DNA of 64,000 nucleotides, taken from Vibrio rhizosphaerae (GTDB lineage Bacteria; Pseudomonadota; Gammaproteobacteria; Enterobacterales; Vibrionaceae). The stretch covers positions 62,001 to 126,000 of the forward strand of contig NZ_AP024904.1 in the NCBI RefSeq assembly GCF_024347095.1, read 5' to 3'. Every line of letters starts with the position of its first letter. The first letter of the stretch is position 1. Shown here one piece after another: positions 5,061 to 40,603 of this stretch. The notes under the pieces were generated by a model. That model was not told where the DNA came from. It saw only the letters and a program-made list of their open reading frames with translations, and made no database searches. The translations under genes and the position numbers were made by a program.

Positions 5061-6228
5061 AAACAAAGCATTTTTGCTCAGTGCTATTGTATGCGGCTCT
5101 TGTAGCAGTGTTGTCATGGCAGATGATGTTGTGAATCCTGAGGCCGCGGTAACAATTGATGAAAACCCATATGGCACAACGATTACAACTGGCAAAAGTG
5201 CCACAGCGAATAGAGAAGATATTGCTGATGGAAACTTGAATCGTGTCTCGATTCAGATGCCAGAATCAGATCAGCAGGCAGATAATCAGCAAAAGTATGA
5301 TTACGATATTAAATTTTTGACGCCTGCTCAGGCTTATGAGAAAGGGCGTTTGCTGCGCGCACAGTTTAAAAATGAAGAAGCAAGACATTATCTGCAATAT
5401 GCTGCCGACAAAGGCGATGCGGATGCTGCTTATTTATATGCGATAGAGTTGTCGGAATATAACCCGACTATCCGCACCCCACGGCTTGTCAGAGAGTATG
5501 TCGAGCAGGCGGCTAATCTGGGTAATCTCCACGCGATGAATTACTTGTCTCAACGTGGAACTTGGTTGCGTACGACGATTCGGCAGTCATGGCAAAAACG
5601 CTATCATGATGGCTTAGTCAGGCTCGCAGCAACGCAACCCGCAAAGGCTGCTTACTATCTGTCTCTTTATTATGAAAAAACGGATCCCGAACAGTCTGAG
5701 TACTACTTAAAACGAGCGATGGATTATAGCTATCCGCTGGCATGGATGGATAATTCCAGACGTTCACTCAATGATATCAATCAGTTATATACCGAGACGC
5801 GTTTTTCGACTGGTATTTACACCAACTATCGTCATGCAGCAGAACATCATTTTATTCCGGCGATGAAAGCATGTGTTGAACTCTATGAAGGTCGCGGTGA
5901 TTTTAAGAAAGCTTTTGAATGGCGTCAGCGGGCACTGGATGCCGGTGACCTGACATCTCTGGCGGTTGTGGCGAAAATATATGCAGGTGAAGCCCCATCT
6001 TATCGGTTTGTGGATGAAGACTTAATTAAAGCCCGTGCTTATTCTGAACTCTATCTGGATTATGCCGGTAGTGATCGTCTGACAAGTTTACATAAATCAA
6101 TGGAACAGTTTTTTGTTGATATTACCAATGAGATGACGCCTCCGGATATTGAGCGTTCTCAAAGTATTACAGACACTTATAAAGAAAAGGTAACCTTTTA
6201 TAATCACGACACTTATTGGGATTTATAA
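5044..6228 (+). CDS. Exported Sel1-repeat protein at the head of the T6SS locus
   Basis: About 394 residues. The frame is open further upstream inside the PAAR gene, but a GTG at 5044 with AAGGTGG just before it gives a natural type I signal peptide: a short N-region with two lysines, a hydrophobic core, and a VMA cleavage site before DD. The mature protein carries Sel1/TPR-like helical repeats (for example residues around ARHYLQYAADKGDADAAYLY and AFEWRQRALDAGDLTSLAVV), a protein-interaction scaffold. Its place between PAAR and TssB matches VCA0106. Its role in secretion is unknown; periplasmic assembly or regulation is inferred only from location. Confidence 0.78.
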   Translation: MLISAKNKAFLLSAIVCGSCSSVVMADDVVNPEAAVTIDENPYGTTITTGKSATANREDIADGNLNRVSIQMPESDQQADNQQKYDYDIKFLTPAQAYEKGRLLRAQFKNEEARHYLQYAADKGDADAAYLYAIELSEYNPTIRTPRLVREYVEQAANLGNLHAMNYLSQRGTWLRTTIRQSWQKRYHDGLVRLAATQPAKAAYYLSLYYEKTDPEQSEYYLKRAMDYSYPLAWMDNSRRSLNDINQLYTETRFSTGIYTNYRHAAEHHFIPAMKACVELYEGRGDFKKAFEWRQRALDAGDLTSLAVVAKIYAGEAPSYRFVDEDLIKARAYSELYLDYAGSDRLTSLHKSMEQFFVDITNEMTPPDIERSQSITDTYKEKVTFYNHDTYWDL

Positions 6229-26739: not shown

Positions 26740-27192
26740 TAGCCTCCGGCGTTGCAGTTTGACGCACAATTGCGTTCCTCAATTTCAGAGGTATCGGTGC
26801 CCTGTGCGCCAGTTACTCTTGCAAAGATGCAAGCGTAACCAGAAGATCTTTTTTGTTTGGCGGCGTCACACGCTTTCCAGAACCGGCTTTTACGGGCGTC
26901 CTGCCCGGAAAAGCCTAACCATTCTTCCATGAATGGTTTTCTTGGTTGAGTGGTTGATTTGAGTTGGGTGAAATCTCTTTAAGGCGAAGCCAACTTGATC
27001 GATGCTCTCAGGGTGAAAAATCATGGAAGATTTTTCAGGATTGCCTGAGCAGGATGCGAATCAATCCGACCCTGATTACGCGTGATGGACTCAACCCCGA
27101 GGCCTTTTGGGGTACTTTTTCGGCCGTGAAAAAGTACCTGGGGCGCAGTCGGAGATGGTAATGAGATCGAAGAAAGTCATTGCGTCCCAAAC
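26740..27192 (+). repeat. Structured 450-bp repeat, copy A (type 1)
   Basis: First of three near-tandem copies. From TAGCCTCCGGC to GCGTCCCAAAC it contains seven inverted repeats in series: H1 26760-26768 with 26803-26811; H2 26812-26822 with 26829-26839; H3 26885-26891 with 26909-26915; H4 26917-26924 with 26931-26938; H5 27015-27022 with 27029-27036; H6 27111-27121 with 27128-27138; H7 27140-27147 with 27181-27188. Short ORFs across it on the minus strand look spurious: they do not keep a shared end between copies. I do not recognise the family. Confidence 0.93.
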
Positions 27193-27215
27193 TCAGCATC
27201 CCCCTTTTACTTTTC

Positions 27216-27668
27216 CAGCCTTCGGCGTTGCAGTTTGACGCACAATCAGTGTCAGTGATTTCAGAGGCATAGGTGTTCTGTGCGCCAGTTACTCTTGCCA
27301 AGATGCAAGCGTAACCAGAAGATCTTTTTTTGTTTGGCTTGGTCACGCGTTGTCCAGAACCAGCTTTTACGGGCGTCCTGCCCGGAAAAGCCTAACCATT
27401 CTTCCTTGAATGGTTTTCTTGGTTGAGTGGTTGATTTGAGTTGGGTGAAATCTCTTTAAGGCGAAGCCAACTTGATCGATGCTCTCAGGGTGAAAAATCA
27501 TGGACGATTTTTCAGGATTGCTTGAGCAGGATGCGAATCAATCCGACCCTGATGACGCGCGCTGAACTTAAACCTAGGCCTTTTGGGGTACATTTTCGGC
27601 CTTGAAAAAGTACCTGGGGCGCAGTCGGAGGTGGTAATGAGATCGGAGAAAGTCATTGCGCACCAAAC
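27216..27668 (+). repeat. Structured 450-bp repeat, copy B (type 1)
   Basis: Same layout as copy A, 23 bp further on, also 453 bp. H5 is identical in its arms to copy A; H6 reads GGTACATTTTC/GAAAAAGTACC with one mismatch. The tail is of the GCGCACCAAAC form rather than GCGTCCCAAAC. The 25-bp spacer to copy C (27669-27693) is identical to the spacer between copies E and F. Confidence 0.93.
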
Positions 27669-27693
27669 ACCTGCATCACAAGTTTTATCTTCC

Positions 27694-28142
27694 TAGCCTC
27701 CGGCTCCCAAATTTGACGCACAATCAGCGTCAGTGATTTCAGAGGCATTGGTGCTCTGTGCGCCAGTTCATCTTTCAGAGATGAAAGACGAACCAGAAAA
27801 TCTTTTTTTGTTTGGCTTGGTCGCACGATTTCCAGAATCGGCTTTTACGGGCGTCCTGCCCGGAAAAGCCTAACCATTCTTCCATGAATGGTTTTCTTGG
27901 TTGAGTGGTTGATTTGAATAAAGTGAAACATTGAATCAACGAAGCTCAACTGATCGATGTGCTCAGGGTAAAATTCATGGATGAATTTTAAGCTTTTCGT
28001 GAGCAGGAGCGAATAAAAGCGACCCTGATTACGCGCACCGAACTCAAAAAGATGCTTTTGGTTCCTTTTGACATCCATCAAAAGGAACTGGGGCGCAGTC
28101 AGAGATGTCGATGAAATCGAAGAAAGTCATTGCGTCCCAAAC
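27694..28142 (+). repeat. Structured 450-bp repeat, copy C (type 2)
   Basis: 449 bp. It has the same hairpin order but different sequence in three stems, each kept paired: H2 GTTCATCTTTC/GAAAGACGAAC (27766-27776, 27783-27793, one mismatch), H5 TAAAATTC/GAATTTTA (27969-27976, 27983-27990), H6 GTTCCTTTTGA/TCAAAAGGAAC (28061-28071, 28078-28088). The region between H4 and H5 is also of a second sequence type. About 215 bp of AT-rich DNA without other features separates it from the effector gene. Confidence 0.93.
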
Positions 28143-28357
28143 CACAGCATTACCATTCCACATACTAAAATACAGTTTAATTACCTCAACCGAGCCTCCC
28201 TGTTACTCCCATTCCAAAAATAACCACTTCCCATCAAAACCCCAAATTTAAACATGTTTTATAAATCCATTTGAGTATAATTGTGGGTTCATATGAAAAT
28301 AACTTTATCAATAAGCATTCACCAATAAAAACAATCACGGCTCAGCCAACAACGTCA

Positions 28358-29923
28358 ATGAACTATCAAACCACTCAAATCTACAACCTGATGATGTACG
28401 AATTTGCTCAAGTTGAAGGGGATTTTGCATCTTTAAGTGAGTCAGATGTGAAATCTGTCATACCAGCTGGAATGCGCTTTGCTGATTTTCTCGAACAACT
28501 TCACTACGGTCATCAGGTGTTACTGACGGATGTGCCATCGATTCCGTTGCTGATCCGGGATCGGGATGAATGGGGCAATCTATACTGGCGAGTGAATCTT
28601 GCGGTTGAGCCTCATCTCGATTTGCTGGCTAACAAGGCTTATACCGCCAGAGTTGAATGGGTCAATCATGGCATTGGTTCAACTTATTCCGGCAGCGTTA
28701 ACGCTTCTGTTTATACTGAGCCTTATGTCGAACGCGAACCTGTGAAGTTGAGTTTACAAGAGCGATTGATCAGGCAGCGTCAGGAGCGACTACGGGAGCT
28801 GGATAAAATCCCACTGCCTTCATCCGCATGGCAGAACGCATTTAACAAACCGCCAGTCAAACCTTCCCGTTTCGCCAAATCTGCGCGAGTGCCGAGCGGT
28901 ACGTGTGACATCGGTACACAAAGAGAGTCGCTTTCTGCGCTGGGGGATTATGCAGCTTATACACTGGCCGTCGGGCAAGGGGTAAGTGCAGCATCTGGAG
29001 AAGCTTTTTTAACGCGTATTGGCGGCGCAGCGCTGGCAGAACTGCCGGGAATGGCGATGAAGATCGTCGGGCGAGCTGGCATTCTTGCTGCATTTGTGCC
29101 GAACAAATTAGCGGACAGTACGCTCTACAGCGCTGCTGATATGAGTAATAAAGACACGGTTGAAACCAATATTCGCTTGGGGTTCAATACGGAAGGTCGG
29201 ATTTACGGCTATCACGTTAATGGGACGAATATCCCTAAGCGTGAGGTAAAACGGGTCGGTGAGCGGTTTGCTGTTGAGTTAGAGCCGGATATCATCATTG
29301 AATGGGTGCCGATCAGCGGCGATTTTGGCGGTAAACCGATCCTTGTCAATCCTATCCCGGAGATGGAAAAGTTCGATATCTGGATCCATCCGCAAGCGGA
29401 TCAAGGCCAAGAATTTGATAACACCTACATCACCCCAATTGCTGATGCAGATCTGCAAGACTATATTCTGACCTTTCCGGTAGAGACTGGGTTACCGCCG
29501 TTGTATGTGGTGTATAATTTGACACCTAAAACGCGATTACCACGAACGAATGGACGGTGGATTCAAGGTGTGCCCGGTAATGGGCTATGGCAGTCTGATT
29601 TAGATGTAGTCAACAGAGTAACCAACGGTGAGGCAATCCCCTTTAAAAATGGGAGACCGATTTTTGATAAATGGTCAAAAGGTCGTCTTATCTTTGAAAA
29701 TGGCGTGTTAGACGGGACGAAAGACGATTTCACTAGAGTTTATGATGAAATAGCAAACGCTAAAAATCTTTCTAGTAGTCATGCAGCAAAAACCCTTTTG
29801 AGAGATAAAGGATTAACACCTCACCATCATACTTTAACTGAAATACAGCTTATTCCGACGGACTTACATAGTAATATTCCACATATTGGTTCAGCATCAG
29901 ACATGAGGTCACATAACAAATGA
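28358..29923 (+). CDS. Antibacterial effector: S-type pyocin domain with C-terminal HNH/EndoVII-type nuclease
   Basis: 521 residues from the ATG at 28358; the frame is open from a TTG at 28271 (550 residues), and neither start has a clear ribosome site. The N-terminal part is of unknown fold. A middle S-type pyocin domain (about residues 255-390) includes NIRLGFNTEGRIYGYHVNG and DIWIHPQADQGQEFDNTYITP. The C-terminal 90 residues end in TPHHHTLTEIQLIPTDLH, then NIPHIG, the histidine-rich pattern of HNH/EndoVII-superfamily toxins that cut DNA. Position right after the T6SS locus makes it a likely T6SS cargo; a bacteriocin role is an alternative. The next gene overlaps by 4 bp. Confidence 0.82.
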   Translation: MNYQTTQIYNLMMYEFAQVEGDFASLSESDVKSVIPAGMRFADFLEQLHYGHQVLLTDVPSIPLLIRDRDEWGNLYWRVNLAVEPHLDLLANKAYTARVEWVNHGIGSTYSGSVNASVYTEPYVEREPVKLSLQERLIRQRQERLRELDKIPLPSSAWQNAFNKPPVKPSRFAKSARVPSGTCDIGTQRESLSALGDYAAYTLAVGQGVSAASGEAFLTRIGGAALAELPGMAMKIVGRAGILAAFVPNKLADSTLYSAADMSNKDTVETNIRLGFNTEGRIYGYHVNGTNIPKREVKRVGERFAVELEPDIIIEWVPISGDFGGKPILVNPIPEMEKFDIWIHPQADQGQEFDNTYITPIADADLQDYILTFPVETGLPPLYVVYNLTPKTRLPRTNGRWIQGVPGNGLWQSDLDVVNRVTNGEAIPFKNGRPIFDKWSKGRLIFENGVLDGTKDDFTRVYDEIANAKNLSSSHAAKTLLRDKGLTPHHHTLTEIQLIPTDLHSNIPHIGSASDMRSHNK

Positions 29924-30408
29924 TCAACATAGAGAAAAAACTTGAAGAACTCAATGTGATACTAGCTATTGAAGAGGTAAATACCGCGCTTCCACCTATG
30001 CCATCTAGTGCGAGCCATATTGTTCGCCACTACAAGAGATCAGTTCTTTTTTCTGAAAATGTCATTTTTAAACCGCAGTACAAAACGAGTTTAGAAGGCA
30101 GGAATGGAGATCTGTCATTAGAGGTTCTGTGGGGAATAGAGGATAGTCCTTTTAACATCGAGAAAGCCAACCAAAGTTTGAAAAATTTAGAAGCAGAGAG
30201 TGACCTTTACTCAATTGGCGGTAGTTCAGGAAGTAATCATATTTGTGTATCAACGGATGACAATGCTATTTATTTGTTCACGAATGGTATTGATATGACA
30301 AGGTTTAAATTATTTGATCATGCTGATGATTTTTTTAATGCCCTGACAATTGAAAAAAGCAGTGGTTCGGACAACTCTCAAGCGGTATCTGTTCAATTGG
30401 ATTTCTAG
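29920..30408 (+). CDS. Putative immunity protein, SUKH-like
   Basis: A 162-residue cytosolic protein whose ATG overlaps the effector stop (ATGA), the usual toxin-immunity arrangement. It has no signal peptide, as expected for protection from a DNA-cutting toxin. The C-terminal half (IGGSSGSNHICVSTDDNAIYLF ... FDHADDFFNAL) resembles the SUKH/SMI1-KNR4 pattern, in which a glycine-rich turn precedes two strands and a final SFxxF-like helix. The family assignment is tentative; the immunity role rests on context. Confidence 0.68.
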   Translation: MINIEKKLEELNVILAIEEVNTALPPMPSSASHIVRHYKRSVLFSENVIFKPQYKTSLEGRNGDLSLEVLWGIEDSPFNIEKANQSLKNLEAESDLYSIGGSSGSNHICVSTDDNAIYLFTNGIDMTRFKLFDHADDFFNALTIEKSSGSDNSQAVSVQLDF

Positions 30409-30613: not shown

Positions 30614-31492
30614 ATGAAAACATCCCTCGACCATCTGCCCGAATATAAACAGCGTGAGCTGGCGGACATCTCAACGATTCTGCGCGATACACTGGAAGAT
30701 TACCTGCAAGGCAAACAGGGCAGTAAGCGTGAGTTTCGCATTCTGAAAATTATTCTGTTCGGCAGCCATGCTAAAGGCAGTTGGGTCAAGGATCCGGTCA
30801 ATGGTTATATTAGTGATTACGATATTCTGGTGATCGTTAATAAAGCGGCTTTGGTGGAGGATTATGTAGTCTGGCAGCGTGCCGAAGAGCGAATTGATCG
30901 TAAAGTGAAATCGGCCCCGTTAGGTTTGATTGTCCACGATTTAAAGGAAGTGAACGAGCGCTTGCAACAGGGTCACTATTTCTTTAAAGATATTCGCGAA
31001 GAGGGCATTGAACTATTTGCCGCGACGCCGAAACCACTGGCAATGCCGGGGGATTTGACTGAGGAAGAGCTGCGAGAGATAGCCCGTAAGCATTATGAAC
31101 AGTGGATAGAGAATGCCGCTGATAGTATTAAAGTTTTCCATTATACTTTTCATGAATCCATGCTTAATGCAGCAGCATTCAACCTGCATCAGGCAACGGA
31201 GCGTCTTTTTGCCTGTACATTGCTGACTTGTACTAACTATCTCCCGAAATCCCACAATATCGAGAAACTTGGCAACCTGTGCGCGCAGATTGATCCGGCC
31301 TTTGCTGAGATTTTCCCGATGGACAACAAATTTCACCGCCGTAGTTTCCGGCGTCTGCAACGGGCGTATATTGATGCGCGTTATTCAGCGCACTACGAAA
31401 TCACTGAAGAAGAGTTGAATTATTTGGTGGCAGAGGTGCAGCGGTTGCAGGCGTTAACCGAACAGGTTTGTCGGGGGAGGATAGGGGATTGA
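30614..31492 (+). CDS. HEPN domain fused to minimal nucleotidyltransferase, copy 1
   Basis: A 292-residue fusion. The N-terminal MNT part has GS at 50-51 and D68-x-D70 (ILFGSHAKGSW ... ISDYDILVIV), the metal and nucleotide site. The C-terminal HEPN part has R256-x3-H260 (DARYSAHY), close to the RNase motif of HEPN proteins. As two-gene modules, HEPN toxins are neutralised by MNT partners that transfer AMP; here both are in one chain, so a self-controlled RNase or a non-toxin role is possible. Copy 2 at 36219 is 97% identical outside residues 165-190. Confidence 0.85.
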   Translation: MKTSLDHLPEYKQRELADISTILRDTLEDYLQGKQGSKREFRILKIILFGSHAKGSWVKDPVNGYISDYDILVIVNKAALVEDYVVWQRAEERIDRKVKSAPLGLIVHDLKEVNERLQQGHYFFKDIREEGIELFAATPKPLAMPGDLTEEELREIARKHYEQWIENAADSIKVFHYTFHESMLNAAAFNLHQATERLFACTLLTCTNYLPKSHNIEKLGNLCAQIDPAFAEIFPMDNKFHRRSFRRLQRAYIDARYSAHYEITEEELNYLVAEVQRLQALTEQVCRGRIGD

Positions 31493-31512: not shown

Positions 31513-31697
31513 TAGCCTCCGGCTCTCAAATTTGACGCACAATCAGTGTCAGTGATTTCAGAGGCATTGGTGTTCTGTGCGCCAGTTCATCTTTCAGAGA
31601 TGAAAGACGAACCAGAAAATCTTTTTTGTTTGGCGGCGTCACACGCTTTCCAGAACCGGCTTTTACGGGCGTCCTGCCCGGAAAAGCCTAACCATTC
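31513..31697 (+). repeat. Structured repeat, copy D (5' fragment)
   Basis: The first 185 bp of the 450-bp element, directly after the HEPN-MNT gene, with the GTTCA form of H2. It stops exactly after the left arm of H4 (AACCATTC) and runs into unrelated DNA. Confidence 0.88.
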
Positions 31698-36097: not shown

Positions 36098-37302
36098 AAA
36101 AGAACCGCGTCGCATTTTACCTTTGAGTCGTGCTAAAACGATGATAAACGGTGTTTTTTGCTGAGTGCTTCTTTTATGCTAGCGCTATTCATCCACAACG
36201 AGCCTCAATATTGCGATTATGAAAACATCCCTCGACCATCTGCCTGAATATAAACAGCGTGAGCTGGCGGACATCTCAATGATTCTGCGCGATACACTGG
36301 AAGATTATCTGCAAAGTAAGCAGGGCAGTAAGCGTGAGTTCCGCATTCTGAAAATTATTCTGTTCGGCAGCCATGCCAAAGGCAGTTGGGTCAAGGATCC
36401 GGTCAATGGTTATATCAGCGATTACGATATTCTGGTGATCGTTAATAAAGCCGCCTTGGTGGAGGATTATGTGGTCTGGCAGCCGGCTGAAGAGCAAATT
36501 GATCGTAAAGTGAAATCGGCCCCGTTGGGTTTGATTATCCACGATTTAAAGGAAGTGAACGAACGCTTGCAACAGGGTCACTATTTCTTTAAAGATATTC
36601 GCGAAGAGGGCATTGAACTGTTTGCCGCGACGCCGAAACCGTTGGCAATGCCGGGGGATTTGACTGAGGAAGAGCTGCGAGAGATAGCCCGTAAGCATTA
36701 TGAGCAGTGGTTCAGTAGCGCTTCCCATTCACTGAAGAAATTTTATTTTTCCTTGAAGGAGCTGACTTTGAATGAAGCTTCTTTCGATCTTCATCAGGCA
36801 ACAGAACGTCTTTTGGCCTGTACACTACTCACTTGTACCAACTACTTGCCGAAGTCTCACAATATCGAGAAACTCGGTAATCTGTGCGCACAGATTGATC
36901 CGGCCTTTGCTGAGATTTTCCCGATGGACAACAAATTTCACCGCCGTAGTTTCCGGCGTCTGCAACGGGCGTATATTGATGCGCGTTATTCAGCGCACTA
37001 CGAAATCACCGAAGAAGAGTTGAATTATTTGGTGGCAGAGGTGCAGCGGTTGCAGGCGTTAACCGAACAGGTTTGTCGGGGGAGGATGGGGGATTGAGTG
37101 TTGTATTTTGGTTCTCTTAGCCATCGGCTCTCAGGTTTGACGCACAATCAGCGTCAGTGATTTCAGAGGCATTGGTGTTCTGTGCGCCAGTTACTCTTGC
37201 CAAGATGCAAGAGTAACCAGAAAATCTTTTTTGTTTGGCTTGGTCACACGCGTTCCAGAACCGGCTTTTACGGGCGTCCTGCCCGGAAAAGCCTAACCAT
37301 TC
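36089..37302 (+). repeat. Duplicated block, right copy
   Basis: Matches 30484-31697. It covers 130 bp of upstream DNA, the second HEPN-MNT gene and the first 185 bp of structured repeat E. The two copies bracket a 4.4-kb segment with the hydrolase, HipBA, GNAT pair and bacteriocin remnant, and as direct repeats could recombine to delete it. Confidence 0.9.
36219..37097 (+). CDS. HEPN domain fused to minimal nucleotidyltransferase, copy 2
   Basis: 292 residues with the same MNT site (GS 50-51, D68, D70) and R256-x3-H260 as copy 1. Seven scattered differences occur outside residues 165-190, but inside that window only 9 of 26 residues agree (FSSASHSLKKFYFSLKELTL against IENAADSIKVFHYTFHESML). 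This patch is the linker and first helices of the HEPN domain. The pattern suggests gene conversion from a third homologue or selection for a different partner specificity. Confidence 0.85.
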   Translation: MKTSLDHLPEYKQRELADISMILRDTLEDYLQSKQGSKREFRILKIILFGSHAKGSWVKDPVNGYISDYDILVIVNKAALVEDYVVWQPAEEQIDRKVKSAPLGLIIHDLKEVNERLQQGHYFFKDIREEGIELFAATPKPLAMPGDLTEEELREIARKHYEQWFSSASHSLKKFYFSLKELTLNEASFDLHQATERLLACTLLTCTNYLPKSHNIEKLGNLCAQIDPAFAEIFPMDNKFHRRSFRRLQRAYIDARYSAHYEITEEELNYLVAEVQRLQALTEQVCRGRMGD

Positions 37303-37565
37303 ATCCTTGAATGGTTTTCTTGGTTGGGTGGTTGATTTGAATAAAGTGAAACATTGAATCAACGAAGCTCAACTGATCGATGTGCTCAGGGTAAAATTCA
37401 TGGATGAATTTTAAGCTTTTCGTGAGCAGGAGCGAATAAAAGCGACCCTGATTACGCGCACCGAACTCAAAAAGATGCTTTTGGTTCCTTTTGACATCCA
37501 TCAAAAGGAACTGGGGCGCAGTCGGAGGTGGTAATGAGATCGGAGAAAGTCATTGCGCACCAAAC
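37118..37565 (+). repeat. Structured 450-bp repeat, copy E (mosaic)
   Basis: 448 bp. H2 is of the GTTAC type and fully paired (GTTACTCTTGC/GCAAGAGTAAC), while H5 and H6 are of type 2 (TAAAATTC and GTTCCTTTTGA arms). Its last 60 bp match copy B rather than C. It is therefore a mosaic of the other copies. Confidence 0.93.
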
Positions 37566-37590
37566 ACCTGCATCACAAGTTTTATCTTCC

Positions 37591-37716
37591 TAGCCTCCGG
37601 CTCTCAGATTTGACGCACAATTGCGTTCCTCAATTTCAGAAACTATGGTGCCCAGTGCGCCAGTTACTCTTGCCAAGATGCAAGAGTAACCAGAAAATCT
37701 TTTTTGTTGGGCTTTG
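37591..37716 (+). repeat. Structured repeat, copy F (5' fragment)
   Basis: About 126 bp covering H1 and H2, separated from copy E by the same 25-bp spacer found between B and C. It fades just before GGGCGTTAGC at 37717-37726, where the methyltransferase segment begins. Confidence 0.85.
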
Positions 37717-40473: not shown

Positions 40474-40535
40474 ACTTCTAATGCGATTCAATTTGAAAAA
40501 TTGGAAATTTTATCATCGAGGTATGTGCGTCTACC

Positions 40536-40603
40536 CTGAAAAAGCATCCGGGGGCGCTTTCAGAGATGCCATTGAAGTTGGGGAAAGTCATTGCGTCCCA
40601 AAC
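40536..40603 (+). repeat. Structured repeat, copy G (3' fragment)
   Basis: Only the end of the element: the right arm region of H6 (CTGAAAAAGCATCC), the GGGGGCGC arm of H7, and the conserved end GAAAGTCATTGCGTCCCAAAC. It marks the border between the TA island and the lactate genes. Confidence 0.75.

Follow-up and report, generated by a model that had tools for sequence, protein, structure and literature searches.

The window analysed here is the whole stretch of 64,000 nucleotides from Vibrio rhizosphaerae, and it contains a repeat in several full and partial copies. Three tandem units, copy A (26741-27216), copy B (27217-27694) and copy C (27695-28150), follow one another with a unit period of 474-478 nt, and a further full copy, E, lies at about 37119-37589. 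BLAST similarity often spans unit positions of about 18 to 452, which gives a core of ~435 bp; in copy A this core occupies 26758-27192, extends from TTTGACGCACA to about TGCGTCCCAAA, contains no recognised gene and is followed by a spacer of ~41 nt. Copy E is a mosaic, where hairpin H2 is of the A/B type and hairpins H5a, H5b and H6 are of the C type. Two truncated copies, one with the left part only (31514-31697, just downstream of an MNT-HEPN gene) and one with the H1-H2 part (37592-37712), and a remnant of the repeat (40534-40603) are also present. A 33-nt core occurs five times in the window, against 0.00 occurrences expected. A BLAST search of the complete genome, 4.56 Mb on two contigs, gives 76 matches to the repeat clustered at many unlinked loci, and the four full copies described in the original prediction are real. 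In agreement with its statement that the repeat is neither a CRISPR nor an IS element, no sign of either was met in the repeat. All copies in the window point the same way, as do all matches inside any one of the 13 stretches L031-L043. At L038 (about 5877-6216), a short copy was seen in which the H1-H4 part is fused directly to H6-H7, without the H5 domain.

Several genes lie between the arrays of the window. Copy C is followed on the plus strand by cargo in the form of a Pyocin_S/WHH nuclease gene (28271-29923), which resembles the T6SS effector model NF047924 at 85 bits, compared to a cut-off of 900, and then by a gene that is probably its immunity gene (29920-30408). An MNT-HEPN fusion gene of 292 aa, probable cargo, is located at 30614-31492 on the plus strand, and the first truncated copy begins at 31514; a second MNT-HEPN fusion gene (36219-37097, plus strand) lies upstream of copy E. 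A HipA-like gene and a TacA-like/GNAT pair were also found between the arrays. Among named organisms, the MNT-HEPN protein has its closest relatives in V. spartinae, Vibrio sp. MEBiC08052 and V. gazogenes, for which reason the clade is called the V. gazogenes group here. Several MNT-HEPN paralogues were also seen in Terasakiispira, Gynuella and Marinomonas.

The seven hairpins of the unit are one folding module used twice, with homologous halves placed head to head on opposite strands. The order H4-H3-H2-H1 of the left module, read on the minus strand, equals the order H5a-H5b-H6-H7 of the right module, read on the plus strand: an outer helix encloses hairpins HP1 and HP2 and is followed by HP3, which is A/T-rich, and by HP4, a G/C-rich terminal helix. 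In copy A, the left module on the minus strand consists of the outer helix AGAA/UUCU (26879-26942), HP1 (H4, 26917-26938) with the loop CANGGA(A/T)G and, in 8 of 62 sequences, a double change from C-G to U-A, HP2 (H3, 26885-26915) with the loop GCAGGACGC and a C.U mismatch on the minus strand, HP3 (H2, 26812-26839) with two main covarying alleles, and HP4 (H1, 26760-26811) with the arms TGACGCACA/TGTGCGCCA. The right module on the plus strand consists of the outer helix TCAGGG/CCCTGA (27008-27075), HP1 (H5a, 27014-27037) with the loop ATGGA, HP2 (H5b, 27038-27067) with the loop GCAGGATGC and three covarying pairs, HP3 (H6, 27111-27138) with covarying alleles, and HP4 (H7, 27139-27189) with the arms TGGGGCGCA/TGCGTCCCA. 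The module loops, CANGGA(H)G in HP1 and GCAGGA(Y)GC in HP2, are read on the minus strand in the left module and on the plus strand in the right module. The original prediction gave seven inverted repeats, which are present, but the helix count is higher because an outer helix encloses each hairpin pair and H5b is added. All the H6, H5 and H2 stems that it quoted were found in the sequence; the C-type allele of H2 is also present, but its presumed mismatch is an A.C on the plus strand, that is, a G.U pair on the minus strand.

The homology of the two halves was determined by cross-detection. A covariance model built from left halves only picks up each right half of the four full copies, on the plus strand and over its full length, at 60-62.5 bits (E about 1e-11). 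One built from right halves only scores 58-70 bits (E 1e-14 to 1e-17) with the left halves of these copies, on the minus strand. The corresponding sequence-only profiles also detect the relationship, but at 10-25 and 30-36 bits. The halves are therefore homologous, and their stems have diverged with the pairing kept.

The strand on which the module is read is reflected in its wobble pairs. A.C in the left half, which reads as G.U on the minus strand, occupies 152 cells compared to 66 for G.T, of which 63 belong to one loop-closing pair, and in the right half G.T occupies 63 cells compared to 2 for A.C. These cells are not independent, and counted by position the wobbles are 9 versus 4 in the left half and 8 versus 2 in the right half. 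In HP1-HP3 of diverged Vibrio modules, G.T reaches 76 and A.C 2, where 58 of the 76 are one pair and the rows were found by a model that rewards G.U. In other genera the stems are nearly perfect, and the values, 17 and 10, do not separate the strands clearly. The folding energy does not separate the strands, both giving about equal z values of −2.8 to −5.5.

Covariation was evaluated in three alignments. Near-full copies, defined by at least 390 aligned positions, gave 70 hits, 67 of them distinct, in the genome of the window and five relatives. Alignment A1 contains the left module of 62 of these 67 copies and A2 the right module of 52 of 61 distinct right-side stretches, both hand-picked, and A3, fitted to the model, contains diverged Vibrio modules (65 matches and 63 distinct rows, from ten of the congeneric genomes in which model R2 found the module). 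In A1, 99.7% of the cells are paired and 94 cells carry double changes, compared to 39.3 ± 3.6 after shuffling (0/500); in A2, the corresponding values are 99.3%, 149 and 55.7 ± 4.9 (0/500). A weaker signal comes from the number of pairs that show a double change, which 36 (A1) and 44 (A2) of 500 shuffles reached. When the 3' partners were slid by 1-3 columns, the pairing in A1 and A2 fell to 30-64%. The helices with double changes in these two alignments are H4, H2, H5a, H5b and H6; in H5b, for example, the compensated alleles are GGATTG/CAATCC and GCTTTT/AAAAGC. In A3, 93.4% of the cells are paired, the outer helix being the weak part (75%), double changes occur in 23 of 36 pairs, and 195 cells carry them, compared to 44.0 ± 5.3 after shuffling (0/500).

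A tree-aware null, our own implementation modelled on the principle of R-scape, was applied after rows shorter than 70% of the median length were dropped. At E < 0.05, 4 of 35 (A1), 6 of 36 (A2) and 10 of 36 (A3) structure pairs were significant. The stricter test over all pairs retained 0, 2 and 4 pairs inside the structure and 0, 8 and 2 pairs outside it, respectively; the eight outside pairs of A2 connect columns of the HP2 region, which is consistent with swaps of whole-hairpin alleles. The hairpin alleles are reassorted from copy to copy, and Fisher tests gave no significant association between them (p 0.12 and 0.41). Within the clade, many of the double changes are thus few whole-hairpin swaps that were inherited or recombined repeatedly, and A3 is therefore the stronger evidence of covariation. 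The central claim of the original prediction, that the hairpins covary between copies, is borne out by the paired columns that exceed the tree-aware null, most strongly in the diverged rows of A3. The route it suggested, a covariance model, a search of Vibrio genomes and a test of the pairs, worked, giving the cross-detection, the diverged modules and the significant pairs.

Two other interpretations of details of the repeat were considered and set aside. A frame of the type F(M)(D/E)E(F/W)LGF passes through many modules, and two antisense frames of this type, of ~100 aa, in copies A-B matched no Pfam family; since the arms covary, the frame is taken as a by-product of the conserved loops instead of a coding sequence. 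Half-copies covering unit positions 1-233 and 173-476 were considered as marks of site-specific cutting and rejected. They define no special junction, because the end at 233 is mostly the point where alleles diverge, and three of the four starts at 173/176 abut the 3' end of an MNT-HEPN gene.

The original prediction recognised no known family, which does not hold for the left half. The minus strand of H4-H3 (26872-26944 in copy A) matches the Rfam family TwoAYGGAY (RF01731, curated cut-off of 43 bits) at 44.3 bits in copy A and 45.9 bits in copy E, and copies C (40.9) and B (37.4) are below the cut-off; two of the five sites of the 33-nt core in the window reach it. In the whole genome, 7 of the 16 matches listed are above the cut-off, and these figures are an undercount because copy A, itself above the cut-off, is missing among the matches listed. 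The right half gives no match to the RF01731 model at E up to 1. The left half therefore belongs to TwoAYGGAY, and the right half is outside the model of Rfam yet homologous to the left. Two hairpins with AYGGAY-like loops are present in both modules. TwoAYGGAY resembles the left module in its two abutting GGA-loop hairpins within an outer helix on the same strand, and the C.U mismatch of HP2 has the same position here as in the majority of the HP2 hairpins that were compared from other genera. However, Rfam models 168 positions under the label Cis-reg, whereas the unit described here also includes HP3 and HP4 and forms one side of an inverted pair. In the consulted part of the 2010 discovery study, the table gives TwoAYGGAY as probably RNA and not cis-regulatory (PMC2864571), and in that of the Rfam 15 paper it is among the families with covariation-improved structure (PMC11701678). 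The literature surveyed, largely in a form other than full texts and including PMC7657543 and PMC12306157, gives no tested function for TwoAYGGAY and contains nothing that was recognised as the 435-bp element.

The module is distributed beyond the V. gazogenes group. It was detected in at least 16 of 196 congeneric genomes by model R2, compared to at least 7 of 196 by BLAST, and RF01731 matches were found in at least 24 of 369 genomes of a class sample (Gammaproteobacteria), many with several copies. Among the matches listed, 22 neighbouring RF01731 pairs are less than 600 bp apart, in 5 of 23 genomes and 3 families, and by eye 21 of them are divergent (head to head) and one is convergent; one tandem pair, in G285, is additional to these. 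The pairs are also visible in sequence stretches inspected separately. Several RF01731-positive genomes, such as G220, G381 and G486, have nothing but lone matches among the matches listed. Single or tandem modules predominate in other Vibrio, where the close pairs are 17 tandem and 3 divergent, the latter all in one genome (G156). Based on 62 of the 65 modules, three truncated ones being left out, 45 module clusters in other Vibrio lie between convergent (13), co-directional (19) or divergent (4) genes, with 9 undecided; the modules are mostly downstream of genes, and their strand is the same as that of the nearest gene 3' end in 17 cases and opposite in 22. Within a named collection, from which the own genome is possibly omitted, the only carriers of an exact 30-mer of the left module are V. 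ruber DSM 16370 and Vibrio sp. MEBiC08052. In 20 stretches of other genera, model R1 found nothing and model R2 gave 11 matches, the best at 38.3 bits. No match was obtained in phage, plasmid and E. coli collections, where the search of phages, plasmids and viral contigs can detect close relatives only. In G299 and G416 (family f107, outside Vibrio), R2 matches and MNT-HEPN genes were seen on different short contigs.

Genes of Gabija, CRISPR-Cas I-F and toxin-antitoxin systems and of colicin-like effectors surround the tandem arrays of the V. gazogenes group. PADLOC and Pfam scans gave Gabija at L031 (GajA 884 bits, GajB 677 bits), Cas3 of type I-F at L036, a HamB-like helicase at L035 (207 bits), ParE/Phd pairs at L031 and L032, colicin-type nucleases and an FRG protein at L032 and L033, and a caspase-like protein at L038. 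No enrichment is claimed, because the scanned genes were chosen by hand and are not a random sample. The type I-F Cas locus at L036 (6632-15058) was seen between two repeat arrays, with CRISPR-like repeats by eye. A common N-terminus, MNYQTTQI..., was observed in the nuclease gene at 28271-29923 and in genes at L032 (7066-8565) and L033 (8670-10232 and 11165-12751), all beside arrays; the three of them that were scanned have pyocin/colicin-type nuclease domains, which differ.

Two array loci are empty in three relatives, both by BLAST and by the two models in six stretches (best match 14.7 bits, E 0.25, chance level). The comparison of occupied and empty sites gave no target-site duplication and no clean end, the intergenic sequence being too diverged for exact ends. 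The gene at one empty site, which we take to be MarC-like, occupies in the relatives the place of the array in this genome, and elsewhere it stands beside repeats here and in G131. The movement of this gene between two loci (L037, L040, L156-L159) in this genome and G131, with repeats at both, fits gene movement by recombination between arrays, in either direction.

The structure can be read in several ways. One reading is that of a structured RNA which would bind CsrA/RsmA through its GGA loops, either as a CsrB-like sponge spread over the genome or at local sites, with the repeats kept for binding. This reading is unlikely, but its nearly invariant HP1 loop makes it the main rival: CA(N)GGA(H)G is found in 62/62 rows of A1, 52/52 of A2 and 60/65 of A3. 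CsrB carries GGA in hairpin loops by design, and the module likewise has GGA loops on covarying stems; the asymmetry of G.U-type pairs between the strands also suits an RNA. The HP2 loop GCAGGA(Y)GC is present in 60/62 (A1) and 52/52 (A2) rows and falls to 23/65 in A3, where 29/65 rows carry GTCGGGAAC instead. The strict motif ANGGA, however, occurs at least twice in 1/62, 16/52 and 31/65 rows (48/179 in total) and is absent in 3, 6 and 21 rows of A1, A2 and A3, respectively, and other genera have ACGAC loops. Unlike CsrB/RsmZ, the element consists of dozens of dispersed copies and divergent pairs with ANGGA mostly once per module; no sigma-70-like promoter was found in the array region, the module is not co-oriented with the upstream gene, and both strands fold about equally well. 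CsrA binding was proposed for TwoAYGGAY in the consulted part of a 2014 motif study (PMC4333381). An improbable reading is that the repeats are passive, an ancient intergenic element such as a terminator or boundary, which would be amplified by ordinary homologous recombination and have no mobility of its own. The region has 8 terminator-like sites, one of them before the array, compared to 2.5 ± 1.8 expected, and the placement mostly downstream of genes, the tandem arrays and the mosaic alleles agree with this reading, but conserved loops, copies at many unlinked loci and a fold far more complex than that of a terminator speak against it.

The two remaining alternatives concern a protein partner. 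MNT-HEPN might be the own partner of the element, for instance an RNase or nucleotidyltransferase acting on folded RNA or a helper of mobilisation, so that gene and repeats would form one system, which we regard as rather improbable. The genome has 18 copies of the gene (L064-L081; L074 with an internal TAG), the repeat is directly downstream in 7/7 of the genes closest to P0001 (82-100% identity), and several upstream leaders resemble by eye the inverted first 30 nt of the repeat. Among the other 11, more diverged genes, the module lies within 1.5 kb in 3, but neither model finds it in 8, although one of these, L071, retains 62 nt of it as a remnant. In other genera, a module is missing near all 18 MNT-HEPN loci, and the gene is missing from the short stretches examined around all 8 R2 loci. 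With the own genome left out, MNT-HEPN is present in 2/7 R2-positive compared to 4/361 R2-negative genomes of the class sample (Fisher p 0.0045), whereas no association is seen with RF01731 (1/23 positive genomes versus 5/345 others, p 0.32). Many arrays have other cargo, and in G272 (L127, L129) sequences that look attC-like by eye lie on both sides of relatives of the gene, which suggests integron cassettes. MNT-HEPN as the driver is thus not the main reading; because most diverged and other-genus loci are without a module and the setting elsewhere is integron-like, it is probably cargo. Movement of REP elements by a RAYT-type Y1 transposase, to which the head-to-head pairs would correspond as in REP dimers (the consulted part of PMC3733652), is the least probable reading by far and is largely refuted. 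Y1 genes (PF01797) were found at 5 places only in the genome, with identical scores and 157-aa frames, which are presumably IS200-sized; across 36 Vibrio genomes, Y1 (HUH) transposases occur in 10/16 carriers of the module and 13/20 non-carriers, six carriers having none; and the unit is a four-part module of ~140-190 nt instead of a 20-40 bp hairpin.

The REP-like reading is favoured because copy number, intergenic placement, head-to-head pairing and the occupied and empty sites fit it. The element is multi-copy, it has conserved loops on covarying stems, two of its sites are empty in relatives, and its arrays stand beside defence, toxin-antitoxin and effector genes. We infer its mobility and function: the 435-bp head-to-head pair, related to TwoAYGGAY and present in dozens of copies, may well be a REP-like, non-autonomous spreading repeat, and its folded single-stranded DNA is the predicted target of an enzyme, a statement to which we give close to an even chance. 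A transposase or recombinase acting in trans on single-stranded DNA would spread the copies; in the clade of the V. gazogenes group, the pairs would later have been amplified in tandem; and recombination between copies would shuffle the hairpin alleles and move or exchange genes between arrays, which would act as recombination sites. This reading and that of CsrA binding could both hold, if a protein-binding RNA is part of the mobile repeat. Its counterweights are that no mobilising enzyme was found and no transposition event was observed in the comparisons, that 17 of 20 close pairs in other Vibrio are tandem and non-inverted, which is against a REPIN-like element, and that MNT-HEPN is commoner in carriers of the module in the class sample.

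The repeat resembles REP, REPIN and BIME elements in being multi-copy and extragenic, with strand-specific hairpins, inverted pairs and a position mostly downstream of genes. As far as the consulted part of PMC3733652 goes, a REP is a short 20-40 bp hairpin that ends on one side in an unpaired tag, GTAG or CGTC, and CGTC REPs have no dedicated transposase; GCGTC is seen by eye near both core ends on the module strands. The module of ~140-190 nt with four helices exceeds this size, and no RAYT of the GTAG type goes with the repeat, hence it is called REP-like and not a member of the REP family. It also differs in its loops, which are conserved across genera, and in its tandem arrays of pairs among cargo. 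Compared with a MITE, the ends TTTGACGCACA and TGCGTCCCAAA are similar by eye, the compared sites have no duplication, and no transposase was identified.

These results place a motif catalogued in 2010 and held in Rfam as half of an inverted multi-copy element in several bacterial families, which shifts the focus from regulation alone to mobility, strand-specific recognition and recombination. Two points go beyond the original prediction: the repeat pairs one module with an inverted copy of it, and its family lies genome-wide in arrays among exchangeable gene blocks. Chromosomal integron cassettes contain toxin-antitoxin, acetyltransferase and defence genes, and the arrays resemble them as directly repeated folded sites beside genes of these kinds; they differ in the unit length, the make-up as inverted pairs and the varied positions of the junctions, which are not cassette-like. 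A possible but doubtful extension is that a so far unnamed class of large structured mobile repeats, built from a four-part strand-specific module that occurs singly, in tandem or paired head to head, has spread in Gammaproteobacteria, and that the arrays of the V. gazogenes group form a cassette-like platform on which defence and rival-killing islands would be assembled and reshuffled without an integron. If the arrays do carry defence and effector genes between sites, defence islands would be assembled in an integron-like manner without an integrase.

A different arrangement was observed in G047 and G057 (L224-L226), where opposed single modules bracket gene blocks of ~2-5 kb. No common gene was seen inside these blocks; the block at L226 (1581-4382) contains a Phd/ParE-like pair by eye.
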